Position numbers and translations under genes: made by a program. This document shows positions 13,132-23,974 of a stretch of 64,000 nucleotides of DNA, one piece after another. The DNA lies in contig JADZDM010000005.1 of the NCBI GenBank assembly GCA_020851035.1, forward strand, positions 372,001 through 436,000, in the 5' to 3' direction. How positions within the stretch are numbered: position 1 is the stretch's first letter; each line of letters starts with the position of its first letter. Source of the DNA: Gemmatimonadaceae bacterium (lineage in GTDB: Bacteria > Gemmatimonadota > Gemmatimonadetes > Gemmatimonadales > Gemmatimonadaceae). Below the pieces are notes generated by a model, which was not told where the DNA came from, searched no databases, and saw only the letters and a program-made list of their open reading frames with translations.

Positions 13132-14598
13132 CTACGCCTCGACCTCGTCCTCCACTGCGTCGTGGTCACCGGTGCGCCCCGGCCCGTTCAGCTTGTTGCG
13201 CAGCGTGCGCACGCTGATGCCGAGCAGCTCAGCGGCCCGGGTGCGGTTGTTGCCCGAGGCCTCGAGCGCGCGCTGGATCAGCGCCGTCTCCGCCTCGTTC
13301 ACGTTCAGGGTGCCGAGCCAGACGCCGTCACCGCCGTTGGCGCCGGCGGCCGGGACCGACCCAGGCGTGGGACTCCGGACCGCCGCACCCGCCCGCGGCG
13401 TGGGGGACATCACGCTGCTGGCCACGTCCAGGCCGTAGCGCACCGCATCGAAGGCCGCCGGTGAGAGCATCGACTCGTTCGAGAGGATCACCGCCCGCTC
13501 CACTGCGTGCTGCAGCTCGCGGACGTTGCCCGGCCACGGGTACCGCTGCAGCATCTCGATGGCCTCGGGGGTGATGCCCTTGACGTCCTTCTTGATGTCG
13601 GCGGCGGTGCGCATCACGAAGCGGTACGCCAGCAGCGGGATGTCCTCGGGCCGCTCGCGCAGCGGCGCGATCATGATCGGGATCGTGCTCAGGCGGTAGT
13701 ACAGGTCCTGGCGGAACGTGCCGTTGGCGGCGTCCGCCTGCAGCTTGCGGTTGGTGGTGGCGATGATCCTCACGTCCACTCGTATCGGGCTCGTGCCGCC
13801 GACCCGCTCGAACTCCTGCTCCTGCAGCACGCGCAGCAGCTTCGCCTGCAGGTCGAGGCGCATCTCGCTCACCTCATCCAGCAGCAGCGTGCCGCGGTGC
13901 GCCCGCTCGAATGCGCCCTCCACCCGCTTGAGCGCCCCCGTGAACGCCCCCTTCTCGTGGCCGAACAGTGCGCTCTCGATCAGCCCCTCCGGCAGCGCGG
14001 CGCAGTTGAGCTGGATGAAGGGCTTGTCGCGGCGGTCACTCTGGTCGTGCAGCGCACGTGCGAGCAGCTCCTTGCCGGTGCCCGACTCCCCCTGCAGCAG
14101 CACGGTGGCGCGGGTCGGCGCCGCCATCGCCACGGTCTGCATCAGCCGGCGCATCACCTGGCTGTCACCGATGATCTGGCGCTCGTTGCGAAACTCCATC
14201 ACCTCGCGGCGCAGGGCATCGTTTTCCCGGCGCAGCCGGACGAGCTCGAGCGCCTGCTCCACCGCCAGCTCGAGCTGCTGCGGCCGGACGGGCTTGGTGA
14301 TGTAGTCCACCGCGCCGGCCTTGATGCTCGCCACCGCATGCTCGATCGAGGCGTAGCCGGTGAGCATGATCAGCGGCACGTCGTACCCCTCCCGCCGCAG
14401 CAGGGAGAGGAACTCCAGCCCCGACAGCCCCGGCATCCGGTAGTCGGAGATGACCAGGTCCACGTCCCCCCGGGCCAGCACCTGCAGGGCCTCGGGCACG
14501 TTCCGGGCGCCGACCGGGGTGTGGCCCGCCTGCTCGAGGGTGTCCTCGAGGATCAGGCCGACACTCGGTTCATCGTCGACGTACAGGATCGTGGCCAT
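13132..14598 (-). CDS. Sigma-54-dependent response regulator, FlrC/FleR/FlgR type
   Basis: This 488-residue bacterial enhancer-binding protein has three parts. A receiver domain carries phospho-acceptor Asp52 in ISDYRMPG and Lys102. An AAA+ domain has Walker A GESGTGKE at 170-177 and the sigma-54 contact loop GAFTGA at 217-222. A C-terminal Fis-type HTH carries RTRAAELLGISVRTLRNKL. Lying between two flagellar blocks, and with a sigma-54 promoter before flgB, it is the likely activator of mid-class flagellar genes. No partner histidine kinase lies next to it. ATG 14598 is chosen over 14694 because the receiver fold begins at MATILYVDDE. Confidence 0.92.
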   Translation of the reverse strand: MATILYVDDEPSVGLILEDTLEQAGHTPVGARNVPEALQVLARGDVDLVISDYRMPGLSGLEFLSLLRREGYDVPLIMLTGYASIEHAVASIKAGAVDYITKPVRPQQLELAVEQALELVRLRRENDALRREVMEFRNERQIIGDSQVMRRLMQTVAMAAPTRATVLLQGESGTGKELLARALHDQSDRRDKPFIQLNCAALPEGLIESALFGHEKGAFTGALKRVEGAFERAHRGTLLLDEVSEMRLDLQAKLLRVLQEQEFERVGGTSPIRVDVRIIATTNRKLQADAANGTFRQDLYYRLSTIPIMIAPLRERPEDIPLLAYRFVMRTAADIKKDVKGITPEAIEMLQRYPWPGNVRELQHAVERAVILSNESMLSPAAFDAVRYGLDVASSVMSPTPRAGAAVRSPTPGSVPAAGANGGDGVWLGTLNVNEAETALIQRALEASGNNRTRAAELLGISVRTLRNKLNGPGRTGDHDAVEDEVEA

Positions 14599-14812
14599 GC
14601 CGGGGAGCTGCGAGGGGAGAAACCAGCGAGCCCTGGCCGGCCACGACAGGGCTCGGAGCCGGCTCAGACACGCACCGGAAGGGTCAAGCGGCAAAACGTT
14701 CCGTCCGATACCTCACAAGAGTAGAACCGCGTCCCGCACGTGCAAGGCGCAGTACCGCCCGGCGTGTCGGCGACCGGATTAGGACGTTCTCATCCTCACG
14801 GAGCTCCGTTTC

Positions 14813-15706
14813 ATGCGGGTCACGACGGCGCAGGCGCAGCGGTCACAGCTGGACTACATCCAGGGCAACCTGCAGCGCCTGGTGAAGGCGCAGGACCAGG
14901 CGGCCACGGGGAAGCGCTTCAAGCGCGGCTCCGAGGATCCCGCGGCCACCGCCGACGTCATGCGCGCCGACAGCACCATTGCCAGCAACACGCAGCTCGG
15001 CCGCAACGGCGACCTCGCCATCGCCCGCGCCAGCGAGGAGGACCGCGTCCTCAGCAACCTGCTGCTCGTCACCGAGCGGGCCCGCGAGATCGCCTCGCAG
15101 CAGTCCGGCTCCACCGCCGACGCCAAGACGCGCATCATCGCCAAGGCCGAGATCGACCAGCTGATCGAGTCGAGCATCGCGCTCGGCAACACCCGATTCA
15201 ACAATGGCTTCCTGTTCGGCGCCTCGCGCAGCACCGAGGAACCGCTGGCCAACACGCCCACCTCCGCGACCCCGTACGCCACCAACCCCGCCACGCTCAC
15301 GAACCCGCAGTTCGAGGTGATGCCCGGCGTGGTGTCGGCGCCCAACCACAACGCCCACGAGATTTTCGTCGACACCAACACGCTGGTGGCGCTGCGCGAC
15401 CTGTCCACCGCCCTCGCCAGCAACGACGTGCCGAACATCACCGCAGCGCTCACCACGCTCAGCACCGCCAGTGACGGCGTCTCGCGCCTGCTCGGCGAGA
15501 CCGGCGCGAAGGTGAACCAGTACGAGACCATCAAGGTGCAGATGGCCGACGCGATGCTCGACACGAAGACGCGCCGCTCGCTGCTGCACGACATCGACCT
15601 CACCGATGCCGCGGCGAACTTCGCCCAGGCGCAGTCGGCCTACCAGGCGGCGCTGAGCGCGGCCAGCAAGGTGCTCAACCTCAACGTCCTGGACTACCTG
15701 CGATGA
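14813..15706 (+). CDS. flgL: Flagellar hook-filament junction protein FlgL (HAP3)
   Basis: This 297-residue flagellin-family protein forms the junction between hook and filament. The N-terminal flagellin signature includes LQRLVKAQDQAATGKRFKRG and the C-terminal coil ANFAQAQSAYQAALSAASKV ends in VLNLNVLDYLR, typical of FlgL. It is in an operon with fliW (4 bp overlap). The usual partner flgK is not upstream. A GGAG ribosome-binding site precedes the start. Confidence 0.93.
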   Translation: MRVTTAQAQRSQLDYIQGNLQRLVKAQDQAATGKRFKRGSEDPAATADVMRADSTIASNTQLGRNGDLAIARASEEDRVLSNLLLVTERAREIASQQSGSTADAKTRIIAKAEIDQLIESSIALGNTRFNNGFLFGASRSTEEPLANTPTSATPYATNPATLTNPQFEVMPGVVSAPNHNAHEIFVDTNTLVALRDLSTALASNDVPNITAALTTLSTASDGVSRLLGETGAKVNQYETIKVQMADAMLDTKTRRSLLHDIDLTDAAANFAQAQSAYQAALSAASKVLNLNVLDYLR

Positions 15707-16155
15707 GCGCCGTGCTGACGGGTGAGGCCTCCGTGCTGGTGGAGTCGGTGCTGCTGGGCCCCCTCGCGCTGCGGCGCGACACGGTGATCACGTTCGCCAC
15801 CGGCCTGCCGGGCTTCGCGTCCCTCACGCGCTTTGCGCTGGTCGAGACGCAGCGCGACGACCTCGTGTGGCTGCAGAGCCTGGACGACACCGGCATCACC
15901 TTCCTGCTCGCGGACCCGTTCGCGCTCGTGCCCGGCTTCGAGATGGAACTGCCGGCAGCTGACCTGGCGGCGTTCGGCGGTGATGCGTCCGCGTCGCACC
16001 TGCTGGTGCTGGCCGTTGCACAGCTCGAGGGTGGAGCGCCGGTGTCGGCCAACCTCCAGAGCCCGGTCGTCATCGACCGGGACCGGCGGATCGGGCGCCA
16101 GGTGGTGCTGCCCGACTCGCGCTACGGCATGCAGCACCCGATCTCGCTGGCCTGA
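15703..16155 (+). CDS. fliW: Flagellar assembly factor FliW
   Basis: FliW is a small beta-barrel protein that binds cytosolic flagellin and, when flagellin has been exported, binds and inhibits the RNA-binding repressor CsrA. It so couples flagellin translation to filament assembly. The 150-residue protein has the family pattern FATGLPGFASLTRFAL, WLQSLDDTGITFLLADPF and the C-terminal NLQSPVVIDRDRRIGRQVVL. It overlaps flgL by 4 bp. In many bacteria csrA follows fliW directly; here an opposite-strand gene follows and no csrA is seen in the window. See the CsrA-like leader of flagellin at 20551-20584. Confidence 0.94.
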   Translation: MSAVLTGEASVLVESVLLGPLALRRDTVITFATGLPGFASLTRFALVETQRDDLVWLQSLDDTGITFLLADPFALVPGFEMELPAADLAAFGGDASASHLLVLAVAQLEGGAPVSANLQSPVVIDRDRRIGRQVVLPDSRYGMQHPISLA

Positions 16156-16160
16156 CCACG

Positions 16161-16181
16161 CGCGCTCAGTCTCTGAGCGCG
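16161..16181. terminator. Bidirectional hairpin between fliW and the glycosyltransferase operon
   Basis: A perfect 9-bp inverted repeat CGCGCTCAG-TCT-CTGAGCGCG lies at the convergent ends of fliW and the minus-strand TPR gene, whose stop codon is inside the left arm. There is no U tract on either side. A stem this strong at a tail-to-tail junction is best explained as a two-way terminator. Confidence 0.7.
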
Positions 16182-17596
16182 GCGACGCCGAGTGCGGCGC
16201 TCACGCGCGTGAGCACCGACGCCCAGTCGCCACGCGCCGGCTGGCGGAAGAGCCGCGCCGAGGAGTACCAGGGCGTCTGGATGCCGTCCATGCCCCAGCG
16301 CCAGTCAGGCACCTGCGGCAGCAGGATCCACACTGGTACGCCGAGCGCGCCGGCGAGGTGGGCGATGCCGGTGTCCACGGTGATGAGGAGGTCGAGGGTG
16401 CAGAGCAGGCGGGCGGTGTGGAGCCAGTCACCGGGCGCCGGCACCTCGCACCGTCCCGATGGCAGCGCATCGGCCGTCACGCCATGCTGCAGGCAGACGA
16501 AGGTGATCGACGGGTGCGTGCGCATCAGGCCGTGCAGCATCGGCGCCGGGATGGAGCGGACGGCGTCGTTGCGGTGCGCGGGATTGCCGGCCCAGACCAC
16601 GCCGACGCGCTGCGCGCCGCGGCCGGCCAGGCGGCGCCGCACGCCGGGCAGGGTGAGGTACGCGGCGTCACCAGGCGTCCAGTCGGTGTCGGTGCCGAGT
16701 CGCTCGGGGAGCGAGAGCAGCGGGACGAAGTAGTCGGCGTTGACACGCGCGCCCCGGGCGACGGCGTCGTACCCCGCCGCCGTGAGCAGTGCCACGGCGT
16801 CTGGCTGGCAGCCGATCACCACCCGCGCCGCCGCGGCGAACGCCGGGTGGTGGGCAAACCGCAGGAACTGGAACTGGTCGCCCACGCCCTGCTCGCCGAG
16901 CAGGAGGATGGTCTTCCCGTCCAGCGGTTCGCCGCGCCACGACAGCGCATCGGTGTCGGGGTGTGGCAGCGCGCGGGCCTCGAAGTCGCGCCAGCCGGCG
17001 GCGGCTTCACCACGCAGGTGGTGCAGCGACCCGCGCGTCATGAGCGCCCCGGCGGAGTGCGGACGTGCCCGCAGGCTCGCCTCGCAGAGTTCCATCGCCC
17101 CGTCGAGATCCGCCAGGTCGTGCCGGATCAGTGCCGCGGTGAGCAGTGCCACGGGGTCGTGCGGGGCCTGTGCCAGTGCGTGTTGCACCTCCGTCCACGC
17201 CTCGTCGGGGAGCAGCGCCTCGCGGAGTGCGGCGGCGAGGGCGGAGGCTGCCGCCGCGTCGCCCGGTCGCTCGGCGCGCACGCGGCGGAACGAGTGCACG
17301 GCATCGGCACCCGCGCCGGCGTCCACCAGTGCGCGGCCGAGGGCGAACTCGGATTCGATGTCGGGGCGCGCCGCCACCCGGATGGCCCGGCGCAGCGTCT
17401 CGCGGGCGTCCAGCACCTGCCCCGCGAGCTGCTGGGCGTTGGCGAGGATCAGGTGCAGGGAGAGCACGGCCGGTGCCAGCACCACCGCCTCGCGATAGCG
17501 CGCCACGGCGCCCTCGTGGTCGCCGCGATCGCTGCGCACCGCCCCCTCGGCGCAGAGTGTGATGGCCGTCACCTCGGCAGAGAGGCGTGTGCTCAT
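16166..17596 (-). CDS. TPR-repeat glycosyltransferase-like protein, third gene of the cluster
   Basis: This 476-residue protein has an N-terminal half of TPR helices (about residues 10-210) joined to a GT-B-like domain related to ADP-heptose glycosyltransferases (GT9/GT41-like). Shared motifs are LLGEQGVGDQFQFLRFA, RVGVVWAGNPAHRNDAVRSI and LLITVDTGIAHLAGALG with PDWRWGMDG near the end. Such proteins transfer sugars in surface or flagellin glycosylation; acceptor and donor are unknown. Start ATG 17596 overlaps the previous gene by 4 bp. The three-gene operon lies back to back with flagellin, so flagellin is the likeliest acceptor. That is an inference. Confidence 0.82.
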   Translation of the reverse strand: MSTRLSAEVTAITLCAEGAVRSDRGDHEGAVARYREAVVLAPAVLSLHLILANAQQLAGQVLDARETLRRAIRVAARPDIESEFALGRALVDAGAGADAVHSFRRVRAERPGDAAAASALAAALREALLPDEAWTEVQHALAQAPHDPVALLTAALIRHDLADLDGAMELCEASLRARPHSAGALMTRGSLHHLRGEAAAGWRDFEARALPHPDTDALSWRGEPLDGKTILLLGEQGVGDQFQFLRFAHHPAFAAAARVVIGCQPDAVALLTAAGYDAVARGARVNADYFVPLLSLPERLGTDTDWTPGDAAYLTLPGVRRRLAGRGAQRVGVVWAGNPAHRNDAVRSIPAPMLHGLMRTHPSITFVCLQHGVTADALPSGRCEVPAPGDWLHTARLLCTLDLLITVDTGIAHLAGALGVPVWILLPQVPDWRWGMDGIQTPWYSSARLFRQPARGDWASVLTRVSAALGVAALRD

Positions 17597-18900
17597 GCCG
17601 ATGTCCCACGCAGCATGGTGACCTGCTGGCGCACGGCATCGAGTGGTGCGCTCCACTCGAACAGCGCCGCCTGCCGCACCAGCGTCACCGAGTCGTACCA
17701 CGGCGTGTCGGGGCGATCGACCATCCAGCGCCAGTCGGGCACGAACGGCACCAGCAGCAGCGTGCGCACGCCGAGCGCACCGGCCAGGTGGGCGACCGCG
17801 GTGTCCACCGTCACCAGCAGGTCGAGCCGGGTGAGCGCATGCGCGGTGTCGTTCATCGTGTGCAGCATCCCGCCGAGGTCCGTGAGCCGCCCCTGCAGTG
17901 GCTCCGGGAGCGGAGTGTGTGCGTCGTGCCGCTGCAGCGCGATCCAGTGCACACCGGCGACGGCCGTGAGCGGGGCGAGCAGCTCGCTGCGGATCGAGCG
18001 TCGGGCGTCGTTGCGGTGCTGCGGATTGCCGCTCCACACCAGTCCCACGCGCGGCGCGGCCACGGGCAGCGCCTGCGCGATGGGCTCCGGGCAGGCACCC
18101 ACGGGCGTGAGCCACGGGGTGCCGCTCACGTCGGCTGGCGACCGCACCCCGAGAAGGCATGGCAGCGACATGAGGCTGGCGTGGACGTCGTGCGCGGGCA
18201 CGGGAGCGTCGGTGGCAATCACGGCGCTCACCCCCGGCACCGCGGACAGCAGGGTGGTGAGCGGTGCCGCGCAACGCAGTGTCACGCGGCCGCCGCGCGC
18301 CGCGACCTGTGTGGCGAAACGCGCGAACATGACCTGGTCACCCAGCCCCTGTTCGCCATCGAGCAGGATGTGGCGTCCGTCCAGCGGTGCCCCATCCCAG
18401 CGCGGCGAGGCGAAGCGGCGCAGGCCGAGGTTGAGCTCCGGCACGGCGAGGCGCGCCTCGTGCGCCGCCCAGCCCTCCTGCCAGCGTCCGAGCATGAGCA
18501 GGTGCAGCCCGCGTGCGAACTGCAGCTCGGCCGATGCGGGATCGATGGCGAGTGCGGCATCGTAGGTGTCGAGCACCACGTCCCACTCGCCGAAGTCCTT
18601 GAGGATCTCGGCCGAGTTGCGGAGCGCCGGCACGCTGTGCGGGGCCAGCTCGAGCGCGCGGGTGGCGGCCTGCAGCGCGAGTGTCGGGTGCCCGCTGGCC
18701 TGGAGGATGCCGGCGAGGTTGCTGAACGTCTCGCTGCGATCGGGATACTGCAGGGTGAGCGCGTGGAAGGCGCGCACGGCCTCGTCGTAGGCACCGCGGC
18801 GGCGCAGTGCGTCGGCCTCGGCCACCAGGCGGCCGTACTGCGAGGAGGCGAGCACGCTGCGATGCGGCGGCCGCATCGGGAGCCGGCGGGTCCGGGTCAT
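17593..18900 (-). CDS. TPR-repeat glycosyltransferase-like protein, second gene of the cluster
   Basis: This 435-residue paralogue of its neighbours has TPR helices in the first half (AVRAFHALTLQYPDRSETFS, then ALQAATRALELAPHSVPAL), followed by the GT9-like domain with LLDGEQGLGDQVMFARFA, RVGLVWSGNPQHRNDARRSI and LLVTVDTAVAHLAGALG, then PDWRWMVDRPDTPWY. Start ATG 18900 overlaps the upstream gene by 4 bp; an in-frame ATG at 18948 lies deeper inside that gene. Three tandem paralogues suggest successive sugar additions or different acceptor sites. Confidence 0.82.
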   Translation of the reverse strand: MTRTRRLPMRPPHRSVLASSQYGRLVAEADALRRRGAYDEAVRAFHALTLQYPDRSETFSNLAGILQASGHPTLALQAATRALELAPHSVPALRNSAEILKDFGEWDVVLDTYDAALAIDPASAELQFARGLHLLMLGRWQEGWAAHEARLAVPELNLGLRRFASPRWDGAPLDGRHILLDGEQGLGDQVMFARFATQVAARGGRVTLRCAAPLTTLLSAVPGVSAVIATDAPVPAHDVHASLMSLPCLLGVRSPADVSGTPWLTPVGACPEPIAQALPVAAPRVGLVWSGNPQHRNDARRSIRSELLAPLTAVAGVHWIALQRHDAHTPLPEPLQGRLTDLGGMLHTMNDTAHALTRLDLLVTVDTAVAHLAGALGVRTLLLVPFVPDWRWMVDRPDTPWYDSVTLVRQAALFEWSAPLDAVRQQVTMLRGTSA

Positions 18901-20429
18901 CCGTCCTTCCGGTCGAGCCACTCGGTGATGCACTGGCGCACCGTGCACACCACGTCGCTCCAGTCGCCGGAGCGCTGCTGGCGGATGATGCGCATGGACG
19001 GGTAGTAGTCGGAGGCGGTGCGATCACGCCCCCAGCGCCATTCGGCCGGGTGCGCGACCATGAGCCAGGTGGAGAGGCCCATCGCGCCGGCCACGTGTGC
19101 GACAGCGGTGTCCACCGTCAGGATCACGTCGCATTCCGCCATGACGTGCGCGGTCTCGCCCATGTCCACGCACTCCGGCACGACATCGGTGACGGTGCGT
19201 TTCAGGGCGGGGGGCACGAGTTCGAGTTCGGCACGCGGTGGTCCCTGCTGCAGCACGATCACCTTCACCGACGGCTGGTCCAGCGCGGGCAGGAGGGCGG
19301 TGAGGGGCATGGAGCGGGTGCGGTCATCGGCGTGGAGCGGCGTGCCGGCCCACACCAGCCCGATGCGGATGGTGCCGCGTGCGGGTGCCGGGAGGCGGCG
19401 TGCGCAGGCCGGTGGTGCGCCTGGTGCCGACAGGTAGGGCACGAGGTGCGACTGCATGTGGCCACCCGTGCGCATGAGGTGCGGCAGCGAGAGCAGGTCC
19501 ACGTGCAACTGGTGTGGCGGCGGTGGCCGGTCGGCCGCCACCACGGCGTCGATCCCGGGCGCGGTCTTCAGCAGCCGGATGAGCGGCTGCGCCACCTGCA
19601 CGGTGACCGTGCCGGCGCCGACGGCGCGGAGGAAGCAGGCCCATCGCACGAACTGCACCTGGTCGCCCAGCCCCTGCTCGGCGCGCACGAGGATGTGGCG
19701 TCCGGTGAGGTCGCCGCCGGTCCAGCGCGGCGAGTTCGGTGTGTGCGGCCGCTGCCGGAAGGTGGGCAGCTCGAGGCGGCGTTCGTACAGCGTCCACCCT
19801 TCGTCGTGGCGCCCGACGGTGCGCAGCAGCATCGCGTGCGTGAGCGCGAGGTTGAGGTCCTCCGGTGCACTCGCGCGCACGCGGTCGCAGAGTGCGAGTG
19901 CGGCGTCGATGTGCCCGTCGCGGTGCAGCAGCAGCGCGGTGGTGTTGGCGATCGACGGGTCACCGGGGGCGAGGGTGGCGGCATGGCGCGCGGCCGCGAG
20001 GCCGTCACCGATGCGTCCCGCGAGGCGCAGTGATTCCGCGGCATCGCGCCAGGCGGTGGCGTCGGTGGTTTGCAGCATCGCGGCGGCGAGGAAGGCCTGC
20101 GCCGCCTGGTCGGTGTCGCCCGTCATGCGGTACGCCTGCGCGAGCTGCGTGAAGCTGTCGGCGCGCTGGCCGTCGAGGGCGATGGCGCGGATCAGTTCAC
20201 GTTGCGCATCGGCAAGGCGCGCGGCGCTGCGCAGCGCGACGCCGTGCAGTGCGGCGACTTCGGCGTCGTTCGGCGTGAGTGCGACGGCGGCGCGGTAGCG
20301 CGCGAGTCCGGCGTCGGTGAGGCCGGCCTGGAGGGCGCGGGCGCCGGCGAGGCACTCCTGCAGCGCACGGTCGCGCCGGGACGGTGCACTCGGCCTGAGC
20401 GCGACGTGAAAGGGGGGGCGGGTGGACAT
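18897..20429 (-). CDS. TPR-repeat glycosyltransferase-like protein, first gene of the cluster
   Basis: This is the longest paralogue, 510 residues, with about six TPR-like units (residues 20-225) before the transferase domain. Matching motifs are LVRAEQGLGDQVQFVRWA, RIGLVWAGTPLHADDRTRSM, VILTVDTAVAHVAGAMG and AEWRWGRDR. It starts at ATG 20429, 164 bp from the fliC start on the other strand, so its promoter must share that short divergent region. I see no strong sigma-28 or sigma-54 site for it on the minus strand. The catalytic details of this subfamily are not visible from sequence. Confidence 0.82.
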   Translation of the reverse strand: MSTRPPFHVALRPSAPSRRDRALQECLAGARALQAGLTDAGLARYRAAVALTPNDAEVAALHGVALRSAARLADAQRELIRAIALDGQRADSFTQLAQAYRMTGDTDQAAQAFLAAAMLQTTDATAWRDAAESLRLAGRIGDGLAAARHAATLAPGDPSIANTTALLLHRDGHIDAALALCDRVRASAPEDLNLALTHAMLLRTVGRHDEGWTLYERRLELPTFRQRPHTPNSPRWTGGDLTGRHILVRAEQGLGDQVQFVRWACFLRAVGAGTVTVQVAQPLIRLLKTAPGIDAVVAADRPPPPHQLHVDLLSLPHLMRTGGHMQSHLVPYLSAPGAPPACARRLPAPARGTIRIGLVWAGTPLHADDRTRSMPLTALLPALDQPSVKVIVLQQGPPRAELELVPPALKRTVTDVVPECVDMGETAHVMAECDVILTVDTAVAHVAGAMGLSTWLMVAHPAEWRWGRDRTASDYYPSMRIIRQQRSGDWSDVVCTVRQCITEWLDRKDG

Positions 20430-20486: not shown

Positions 20487-20513
20487 TCAAGTCCCGGTCG
20501 GGGCTGCCGAGAC
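20487..20513 (+). promoter_or_regulatory. Sigma-28 (FliA) promoter of flagellin
   Basis: TCAAGTCC at 20487-20494, an 11-bp spacer, then GCCGAGAC at 20506-20513. Against the FliA consensus TAAAGTTT-N11-GCCGATAA this is 5/8 and 6/8 with exact spacing, and the TCAAG form of the -35 is used by FliA in several groups. Predicted start near 20520 gives a leader of about 74 nt before the fliC ATG. Confidence 0.8.
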
Positions 20514-20550
20514 TGAGGGGGGAACCGGAGGCCGATTCGCGGTGCCGGGG

Positions 20551-20584
20551 GGAGCATGGATGCTCCACAGCCAATCATGGAGGA
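20551..20584 (+). promoter_or_regulatory. Predicted CsrA-binding leader of flagellin mRNA
   Basis: A perfect hairpin GGAGCA-TGGA-TGCTCC (20551-20566) presents AUGGA, a match to the CsrA core ANGGA, in its loop. A second AUGGA at 20577-20581 runs into the Shine-Dalgarno AGGA (20581-20584), ten bases before the start codon. Four further GGA copies, including one in the left arm of the hairpin, make the leader GGA-rich. This is the layout of known CsrA targets such as Bacillus hag: one site in a hairpin loop and one over the ribosome site. FliW, the CsrA antagonist, is encoded nearby. The binding itself is inferred. Confidence 0.62.
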
Positions 20585-20593
20585 TTTGTCCCA

Positions 20594-21367
20594 ATGCGTA
20601 TCAACACGAACGTCGGTGCCCTGAACTCGTCCAAGAACGCGTTCATCAACACCATGTCGACGGAAAGCTCGATGCGGAAGCTGTCGTCGGGCCTGCGGAT
20701 CAGCCGCGCCGCCGATGATGCCGCCGGTCTCTCCATCGCCAACAAGCTCCGGGCCCAGAGCCGCTCGCTGACGGTGGCGGCTGCGAACTCCGAGCAGGGC
20801 AACGCGATGCTCCAGATCGCGGAAGGTTCGGCCTCGACGATCCAGAAGATCCTCGAGCGCCAGAAGGAACTGATCATCCAGCGCGAGTCGACGGGCAACA
20901 ACAACTCCGTCACCACCACGCTGAACACCGAGATCAGCACGTTGAGCTCGGAGGTGGACCGCATCATCTCGTCCACCAACTTCCAGGGTTCGAGCGTCTT
21001 CACGAACCTGTCGTTCCAGGTGTCCGACGGCACGGCCGGCGGGCAGGTGTCGGTGAACGCCGCGCTGACCTCCTCCACGGTGTCGCTGGCCGGCACGGCC
21101 TCGATCTCCACGGTGGACACGGCACTCACCGCGATCAACTCGGTGCTGGCGAACATCGGTGCCGGCCAGAACCGCCTCGACTACACGGTGCAGAACCTGA
21201 AGTCGGCGGTGGTGAACGTGAAGGCAGCGGAATCGACCATCCGCGACGTGGACATGGCCGAGGAAATGGCCAACTACACGAAGAACAACATCCTGACCCA
21301 GGCGGCACAGGCCATGCTCGCCCAGGCGAACCAGAGCTCGCAGAGCGTGCTGAGTCTCCTGCGCTGA
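20594..21367 (+). CDS. fliC: Flagellin
   Basis: This 257-residue flagellin is nearly minimal: only the D0/D1 coiled-coil domains, without the variable D2/D3 outer domains. The N-terminus MRINTNVGALNSSKNAF leads into KLSSGLRISRAADDAAGLSI; the C-terminus carries ESTIRDVDMAEEMANY and ends QSSQSVLSLLR. The short centre (about residues 130-180) is very Ser/Thr-rich and could carry O-linked sugars. It is the only flagellin gene in the window. A sigma-28 promoter and a CsrA-like leader precede it; a hairpin follows. It is exported by the flagellar type III system with FliS as chaperone. Confidence 0.97.
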   Translation: MRINTNVGALNSSKNAFINTMSTESSMRKLSSGLRISRAADDAAGLSIANKLRAQSRSLTVAAANSEQGNAMLQIAEGSASTIQKILERQKELIIQRESTGNNNSVTTTLNTEISTLSSEVDRIISSTNFQGSSVFTNLSFQVSDGTAGGQVSVNAALTSSTVSLAGTASISTVDTALTAINSVLANIGAGQNRLDYTVQNLKSAVVNVKAAESTIRDVDMAEEMANYTKNNILTQAAQAMLAQANQSSQSVLSLLR

Positions 21368-21447: not shown

Positions 21448-23517
21448 ATGGGAACGAGCATCAACATCGGCGGGCTGGTGTCCGGCGTGCAGTGGCAGGA
21501 CCTGGTGGACCAGATGGCGGCCGCCGACAAGGCGCGCACCGTCACGCCGCTGCAGACCCGCATCACCGACGCCGACAAGCGCAAGGCGGCGTGGACGGAG
21601 CTGAACGGGCTGGTGAAGAAGCTGCAGGACGCCGGCACGGCGCTGAAGCTCGGCACCGCGTTCACCGACTACGCCGCGACCGTCTCGCCGAGTACGCAGA
21701 CGAACCGCACGCTGCTGAGCACCTCCGCCACGTCGGCTGCCCGTCCCGGGTCGTACCGCGTGGAGGTGGTGGACCTCGCGCGCGCCGAGAAGCTGAGTGG
21801 CGCGGTCGTGAGCGATGCGACGGCGGCGCTGGGCATCGCCGGCTCGTTCTCCGTCGCCGGCCAGGGGGTGACCATCGCGGCCACCGACTCGCTCGAGGGA
21901 GTGCGCGACAAGATCAATGCCCTGAACAGCGGCGCCACGGCCACCAAGGTCTCGGCGTCGGTGCTGACCAGCGCCGCCGGCCAGAAGCGGCTGGTGCTCT
22001 CAGCCGACACCGTCGGCAGCGCCGGCACGGGGCTGGTGGATGGCAGCGAGGGGGTGCTGCGCGACCTCGGCTTCGTGGACTCGCGCTCGCGCGCCGTGCC
22101 GTCGTCGGGGCTGGCGATTGCCGCCGCCCTCGGGGTCACGACGCCGCCGCCGAGCAGCATCCGCGTGGGCACGCGCACGATCAGTGTCGACCTGTCGGTG
22201 GACTCGATCGCCTCGATCGTGGCCAAGATCCGCGCTGCGGGTGGCCAGGCCGAGGTGCAGTCCGAGACCGTCGGCGGGGTGCCGTCGTACCGCATGAGCG
22301 TCGGAGCCAACGTGACGGCGACCGCCGACGCGAACAGCGCCGACACGCTGGCCGCGCTCGGCTTCGCCGCCGGTGCACAGGGGAGCGTGCAGCAGGTGGT
22401 GGCCTCGGGGCTCGCGTTCCAGGGGGCCGACGACTCGCCGGCCTCGGACACGACGCGGCTCATCGACCTCAAGTCGGGTGGCGTGTCGCTCGGCGTGAGC
22501 GTGGGTGACACGCTGACGTTCAGCGGCCAGCGCGGCGACGGCTCCACCGTGACCACGTCCTTCGTGGTGGGCGGCGCCGACACGCTCGCGACGCTGCTGG
22601 CGAAGATGAACGATGCCACCACCGGCTTCGGTGCCGGCAGCCGGCCGGCGCGGGCGTCGATCGACGCGGACGGCAAGCTGCGCCTCAACGATGGCACCGG
22701 CGGCGACTCGCGGCTGCGCCTGGCGATGAGCGTGGCGCCCGCGGCCGGCGGCGCGCCGGCCGCGCTGCTCGGCACCTTCGGCACCGAGACCGTGGGCCGC
22801 TCGCGGGCGATGGTGGCCGGCAGCGACGCGCAGGTGCGCGTGGATGGCGTGCTGCTCACGCGCGCGACCAACACCATCGGCGATGCGCTGGATGGCGTGA
22901 CGCTCAACCTCCTGCAGGCGGAAGTCGGCACCGAGGTGGACCTCACCGTCACCCGCAACCTGGAGACGTCCGTCACGGCGGTGAAGGACTTCGCCAAGGC
23001 GTACAACGACATCGTCACGTTCGAGGCCGGCCAGCAGCTCTCGGGCCAGCCGCTGCAGTACGACAGCACGCTGCGGCGGATGCTGTCGTCGTTCACGGCG
23101 GCGCTGCGCACGCAGGTGCCGGCGGGCGGTGCGTACGATCGCGGCGCCCGTGCCGGCTTCACCCTCACCCGCTCGGGGGCGATCGAGGTGGACGAGACCG
23201 TGCTGCGCGGGGCGATGGGTGCGAACCTGGGCGGCGTGCAGGCCCTGTTCGGCACCGCCGGCATCGGCAACGCGATGGTGAGCGCGACGGCGTTCGCCTC
23301 GCGCGTCGGCGACGGCACGATCACGACCGAGATCAGCAACATCACCAACTCGAACTCGCGGCTCACCAAGCGCATGAACGAGTTGCAGGACCGGGTGGAC
23401 GCACGCCGTGCCGCCCTGATCCAGCGGTTCACCTCGATGGAGCTGGCGATGAACCGGCTGCAGCAGCAGGGCACGGCACTGACCCAGTCGGTCTCCGCGC
23501 TCAGCGCCACCGCCTGA
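21448..23517 (+). CDS. fliD: Flagellar filament cap protein FliD (HAP2)
   Basis: This 689-residue filament cap protein folds newly exported flagellin at the tip. The N-terminus MGTSINIGGLVSGVQWQDLV is the FliD signature, followed by GSYRVEVVDLARAEKLSGAV. The C-terminal coiled coil has SRLTKRMNELQDRVDARRAA and ends TSMELAMNRLQQQGTAL. It is longer than enterobacterial FliD (about 465) because of extra outer domains in the middle (about residues 150-500). A strong ribosome site GGGAGGAG precedes the ATG. It probably continues in an operon with fliS. Confidence 0.95.
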   Translation: MGTSINIGGLVSGVQWQDLVDQMAAADKARTVTPLQTRITDADKRKAAWTELNGLVKKLQDAGTALKLGTAFTDYAATVSPSTQTNRTLLSTSATSAARPGSYRVEVVDLARAEKLSGAVVSDATAALGIAGSFSVAGQGVTIAATDSLEGVRDKINALNSGATATKVSASVLTSAAGQKRLVLSADTVGSAGTGLVDGSEGVLRDLGFVDSRSRAVPSSGLAIAAALGVTTPPPSSIRVGTRTISVDLSVDSIASIVAKIRAAGGQAEVQSETVGGVPSYRMSVGANVTATADANSADTLAALGFAAGAQGSVQQVVASGLAFQGADDSPASDTTRLIDLKSGGVSLGVSVGDTLTFSGQRGDGSTVTTSFVVGGADTLATLLAKMNDATTGFGAGSRPARASIDADGKLRLNDGTGGDSRLRLAMSVAPAAGGAPAALLGTFGTETVGRSRAMVAGSDAQVRVDGVLLTRATNTIGDALDGVTLNLLQAEVGTEVDLTVTRNLETSVTAVKDFAKAYNDIVTFEAGQQLSGQPLQYDSTLRRMLSSFTAALRTQVPAGGAYDRGARAGFTLTRSGAIEVDETVLRGAMGANLGGVQALFGTAGIGNAMVSATAFASRVGDGTITTEISNITNSNSRLTKRMNELQDRVDARRAALIQRFTSMELAMNRLQQQGTALTQSVSALSATA

Positions 23518-23560: not shown

Positions 23561-23974
23561 GTGACCTACCCATCACGTGCCACGCAGTACCGGGAGCTGC
23601 AGGTCATGTCGGCCTCGCCGGCCCGCCTCACCGTCCTCCTGTTCGAGCACCTCGAGGTCGTGCTGCGACGCGCGCAGACGGCCATGCGCAACAACCAGGT
23701 GGAACAGCGCGTCACGAACCTCGGGCGCGCCCGCGAGATCGTGAGCGAGCTGCTCGGCACGCTCGACATCGACCGCGGTGGCGACATCGCCCTCGAGCTC
23801 TCGATGCTTTACGCCTTCCTGCTCGGCGAGCTGGTGGACGTGGGGATCCGGCGGGATGCGGCGCACCTGGGGCGGCTGATCGGGATCGTGAACACGCTCA
23901 GCACCGCCTTCTCCGCCGCCGCCGCGCAGCTCGACGAGCAGCGCCTGGCCGCCCCGCTGGCCGCCTCGGCCTGA
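23561..23974 (+). CDS. fliS: Flagellin chaperone FliS
   Basis: This 137-residue export chaperone binds the flagellin C-terminus in the cytosol and prevents early polymerisation. The FliS pattern is clear: YRELQVMSASPARLTVLLFE at the start, a helix with RVTNLGRAREIVSELLGTLD, and DRGGDIALELSMLYAFLLGE. Start codon is GTG 23561, which keeps the conserved YPSRATQYRE segment. It lies 43 bp after fliD and 6 bp before the next gene. Length is typical. Confidence 0.92.
   Translation: MTYPSRATQYRELQVMSASPARLTVLLFEHLEVVLRRAQTAMRNNQVEQRVTNLGRAREIVSELLGTLDIDRGGDIALELSMLYAFLLGELVDVGIRRDAAHLGRLIGIVNTLSTAFSAAAAQLDEQRLAAPLAASA

Follow-up and report, generated by a model that had tools for sequence, protein, structure and literature searches.

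The flagellin gene fliC in this stretch of Gemmatimonadaceae DNA (64,000 nucleotides, hereafter the window) has a 5′ leader with two candidate CsrA sites, and the question is whether this leader supplies the cis-acting part of a FliW-CsrA checkpoint on flagellin, as an earlier note made from the letters had predicted. We think it very probable that it is. The two RNA sites are present, they are conserved in related leaders with covarying stems, and csrA, fliW and flagellin genes are present here and co-occur across the phylum, all of which supports the checkpoint reading. The gene itself (20594..21367, + strand) encodes a flagellin of 257 aa, which matches Pfam PF00669 and PF00700 as well as solved flagellins (E 3e-52). 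A sigma-28-like promoter, TCAAGTCC-N11-GCCGAGAC, can be read in the sequence at 20487..20513 (+), and its position places the transcription start so as to give a leader of 80 nt (20514..20593, +). A sigma-28-like pattern also lies upstream of fliC in 57/70 leaders from the phylum, a raw count made without a null model.

Within the leader, predicted CsrA site 1 (20551..20566, +) is the hairpin GGAGCA-UGGA-UGCUCC, with six perfect base pairs and a loop GGA at 20558-20560; in the convention used for CsrA it becomes a hexaloop, AUGGAU, with a C-G closing pair. A second AUGGA (20577-20581) follows 21 nt downstream of the first and overlaps the Shine-Dalgarno GGAGG, which is read in the sequence at 20579..20583 (+). 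Predicted CsrA site 2 is a weak hairpin around this motif, AAUC-AUGGAG-GAUU (20573..20586, +), with the Shine-Dalgarno inside its loop. GGA triplets stand at -43, -36, -15 and -12 from the fliC ATG (20594), and two others lie farther upstream. The earlier note had described a perfect hairpin with AUGGA in its loop, a second AUGGA about 20 nt downstream over the Shine-Dalgarno, and several additional GGA triplets, and each of these is found as claimed. Both sites read CAUGGA-N-G, which fits the CsrA/RsmE loop consensus.

The protein half of the circuit is also encoded in this genome. A profile search recovered a single copy of csrA (PF02599, E 2e-19; G000:C5:346418-346573), as the prediction required, and its 84-aa product keeps R44 and N55 (Bacillus numbering). 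The gene lies directly downstream of flgK, 25.4 kb before the left edge of the window and on the same contig, in a flagellar region that includes flhA, an flhF-like GTPase gene, a gene for a sigma-28-like factor, rod genes, flgA, flgH, flgI and flgN. It had been said that csrA is absent from the window, not next to fliW, and unlinked. The first two statements hold; the third is too strong, because csrA shares the contig and the flagellar region with fliC, at a distance of 46 kb with flhB, fliM, flgE and flgD in between, and is better described as lying at its opposite end. Here csrA and fliW are separated by 41 kb. In 30 genomes, the present one among them, the two genes lie 29-51 kb apart on a single contig. 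In f10, a distant family that belongs to another class, the figure is 3.6-3.8 kb.

By homology, fliW (15703..16155, +; Pfam PF02623, E 2e-29) encodes the assembly factor that binds flagellin and CsrA, and its product resembles the FliW in structure 5dmb (E 1.2e-15), an entry that contains CsrA as well. Directly before it is an flgL-like gene (14813..15706, +), assigned from its Pfam flagellin domains and from gene order, and downstream of fliC come the filament cap gene fliD (21448..23517, +; Pfam FliD_N and FliD_C) and the flagellin chaperone gene fliS (23561..23974, +; Pfam FliS, E 8e-27). Three consecutive TPR genes occupy the space between fliW and fliC (16166-20429, - strand); two of them have weak glycosyltransferase-9 matches, and their products may modify flagellin. 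A sigma-54-dependent response regulator is encoded directly before flgL-fliW (13132-14694, - strand), which suggests sigma-54 control of earlier flagellar genes.

The strongest evidence comes from related leaders. We compared 70 FliC leaders from several families of Gemmatimonadota and from another class of the phylum, leaving out genus g47, which has a different flagellin. A loop A-N-GGA-N is at the expected place in every one of the 70. The closing stem has at least 4 bp in 69/70 (the exception, L055, has 3), and the GGAs of hairpin and Shine-Dalgarno are spaced 20-27 nt apart, again in 69/70, the exception being L064 with 41 nt as measured from its first hairpin copy. In L064 and L065 (genomes G207 and G209) the CsrA-type hairpin in front of fliC occurs twice in tandem, apparently through duplication of the site. 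When leaders were scanned separately for a 5-bp GGA hairpin of any kind, 60/61 and 9/9 of them gave a match, as against about 5% of shuffles; in a few, the match chosen was the Shine-Dalgarno hairpin and not the upstream one.

The stems vary in a manner that preserves pairing. For site 1 (63 distinct sequences) the covariation score is 0.584, compared with 0.235 for shuffles and 0.088-0.181 for slid pairings; 86.6% of cells are paired and double changes occur in 7/7 pairs (G-C to A-U, C-G and U-A). It is the slid control that carries this argument, because relatedness inflates the shuffle control. The register of the hairpin was picked for best pairing, which biases the comparison somewhat in its favour; the loop A and GGA were not so picked, beyond the GGA itself. 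The Shine-Dalgarno hairpin gave 0.384 in 62 leaders, against 0.173 for shuffles and at most 0.155 for slid pairings. From these alignments it is supported, more weakly than site 1, and it is not universal, being missing in part of the phylum. The expectation that the loop GGA and the Shine-Dalgarno GGA would be kept in related fliC leaders is therefore confirmed by alignment, with compensatory stem changes in addition.

Folding of this particular leader raises a different interpretation, namely that it is a bistable switch or thermosensor in which the 3′ arm of the hairpin, UGCUCC, pairs with the Shine-Dalgarno and shuts translation without CsrA. In short context this is indeed what is favoured, both in the 60-nt fold and in the pair probabilities, for this leader and for one close relative (P about 0.98 and 0.95). 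The 5′ arm is moreover nearly always all purine, and the 3′ arm therefore resembles an anti-Shine-Dalgarno. However, a third genome of the same genus favours the hairpin, a 113-nt fold of the present leader brings the hairpin back, and the mean pair probability across the phylum is 0.88 for the hairpin and 0.08 for the alternative. We consequently rejected a conserved pairing between the 3′ arm and the Shine-Dalgarno, since it is not conserved across the phylum, and regard a switch of this kind as improbable.

Slightly less probable still is that the hairpin is a CsrA-independent element, acting in mRNA stability or as a structural barrier, with a loop GGA that is incidental. The stem does covary by itself, and some Lactobacillales that have no csrA retain a hairpin in this position that lacks the GGA. 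Against this, the A-N-GGA of the loop is invariant in the phylum while the stem letters vary freely, and the GGA hairpin is mostly lacking where csrA is lacking. The latter point comes from flagellin leaders of other phyla, sampled as the named genomes returned by a fliC search, Bacillota, Actinomycetota and Spirochaetota among them. The GGA hairpin is present in 27/34 leaders from csrA-positive genomes and in 1/15 from csrA-negative genomes (Fisher p 2e-6), a p value that overstates the evidence because the csrA-negative genomes are mostly of one clade, the Lactobacillales, and represent few independent events rather than fifteen. The sole csrA-negative leader with a GGA hairpin, L181, comes from a possibly incomplete Spirochaetia MAG. 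Among the csrA-less Lactobacillales, the hairpin with a loop lacking GGA was seen in L133, L171, L170 and L172 (for example AAGGC-AATGAA-GCCTT). Alkalibacterium-type leaders retain the hairpin with AAUGAA as its loop, which looks like a loss of the GGA.

That a GC-rich leader simply formed this hairpin by chance is barely conceivable: the fold of the entire leader is no more stable than those of shuffles (z about +0.8 to +1), so that support for the element is comparative and not thermodynamic, but the two-site pattern (at least 5 pairs around A-N-GGA, followed 20-27 nt later by another A-N-GGA ahead of a start codon) has its single match in the window at the fliC leader, with 0.025 matches per 64-kb strand in dinucleotide shuffles and 0/20000 in shuffles of the leader, and conservation and compensatory changes across the phylum already refute the idea. 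A covariance model of the element (R1) likewise has one significant match in the 5-Mb genome, which is the fliC leader (E 5e-7). This fliC-derived model revealed no further significant CsrA-type leader in the genome, the next match (E 3.2) being inside an antiporter gene, and an Rfam search of the leader and the window returned no match.

The genes of the proposed checkpoint also travel together. Among 200 genomes of the phylum, csrA was found in 56, fliW in 53 and flagellin in 58; all three are present in 52/200, which is 52/58 of those that bear flagellin, and none in 139/200. For the association between flagellin and csrA, Fisher p is 1e-38. The exceptions are few. In G120, flagellin, fliW and the hairpin are present and csrA was not detected, perhaps because of an assembly gap; in G085, a genome that is 88% complete, fliW was not found. 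In addition, three genomes have csrA and neither of the other two genes, and four belong to g47.

By analogy with the Bacillus and Campylobacter systems, we infer that CsrA binds the fliC leader and represses translation, and that FliW acts as the switch. One face of a CsrA dimer would hold the upstream hairpin loop and the other the A-N-GGA that contains the Shine-Dalgarno, and with CsrA bridging both sites ribosomes would be unable to start on fliC. While the hook is unfinished, cytoplasmic flagellin would hold FliW, leaving CsrA free and flagellin synthesis off. Once flagellin is exported, FliW would be freed to bind CsrA and the block would be lifted.

The arrangement had been likened to that of Bacillus hag. 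The hag leader of Bacillus subtilis has two CsrA sites, one of which overlaps the Shine-Dalgarno (Yakhnin 2007 and Mukherjee 2011 as cited in PMC7652899; PMC6529632). The likeness holds for the two-site design with one site at the Shine-Dalgarno and for the presence of FliW and CsrA homologues. In Bacillus fliW lies next to csrA and the two are translationally coupled; here they are 41 kb apart, with csrA after flgK and fliW after flgL. Campylobacter flaA, with two ANGGA hairpin loops, is at least as close a model. In Campylobacter jejuni the flaA leader forms two ANGGA stem-loops that are experimentally proven CsrA sites, the second of them over the ribosome-binding site (PMC4894983). As here, compensatory changes are found in relatives, csrA and fliW are not adjacent, and the flagellin gene is a sigma-28 gene (PMC4894983). 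The differences are that the phylum is another one, that the loops here are mostly ACGGAU or ACGGAC, that the stems are GC-rich and that csrA follows flgK; the Campylobacter network also includes mRNA localisation and a sponge function. The loop motif C-A-N-G-G-A-N-G matches the general CsrA/RsmE consensus, as in the gammaproteobacterial Csr/Rsm systems. Whereas those systems rely on sRNA antagonists, the antagonist expected here is FliW, and none of the Rfam Csr sRNA families was found within the window.

FliW-CsrA has already been described as widespread, in Firmicutes, Spirochaetes, Thermotogae, Actinobacteria and others, and what we report therefore adds a phylum to a known system and is not a new kind of system. 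In a literature search of limited coverage, no paper mentioned Gemmatimonadota alongside both CsrA and FliW, and no binding, translation or genetic experiments on the circuit in this phylum came up. Judged from sequence, this feedback on flagellin, for which most work has been done in Bacillota and Campylobacterota, would extend to a whole further phylum. The covarying RNA element, which has no Rfam match, offers a means of recognising the circuit in sequence data. The correspondence between loop GGA and csrA across phyla supports the idea that controlling flagellin is the conserved role of CsrA, possibly its ancestral one.

One flagellated genus of this order, g47 (L184-L187 and L194-L195), departs from this pattern. 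Where the gene was read its flagellin is of the alphaproteobacterial type; FlbT is present in all 5 flagellin-bearing genomes examined and csrA in none, and a search of four of them for fliW gave no match. It looks as though the FliW-CsrA module has been replaced by an FlbT module. We had considered g47 as a case of GGA erosion and dropped it as such, since its flagellin is of another type and is accompanied by FlbT. We lean slightly towards a broader account, in which the two-hairpin CsrA element has a single ancient origin as a cis-element and persists in Gemmatimonadota, Bacillota, Actinomycetota and Campylobacterota as long as csrA does, its loop GGA being lost where csrA was lost, and in which this one genus of Gemmatimonadota swapped the whole module for an alphaproteobacterial-type flagellin with FlbT. 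Finally, a record titled Candidatus Kuenenia (L112) contains a Gemmatimonadaceae-like flagellin (72% identity) together with its leader, and is probably a misbinned contig.
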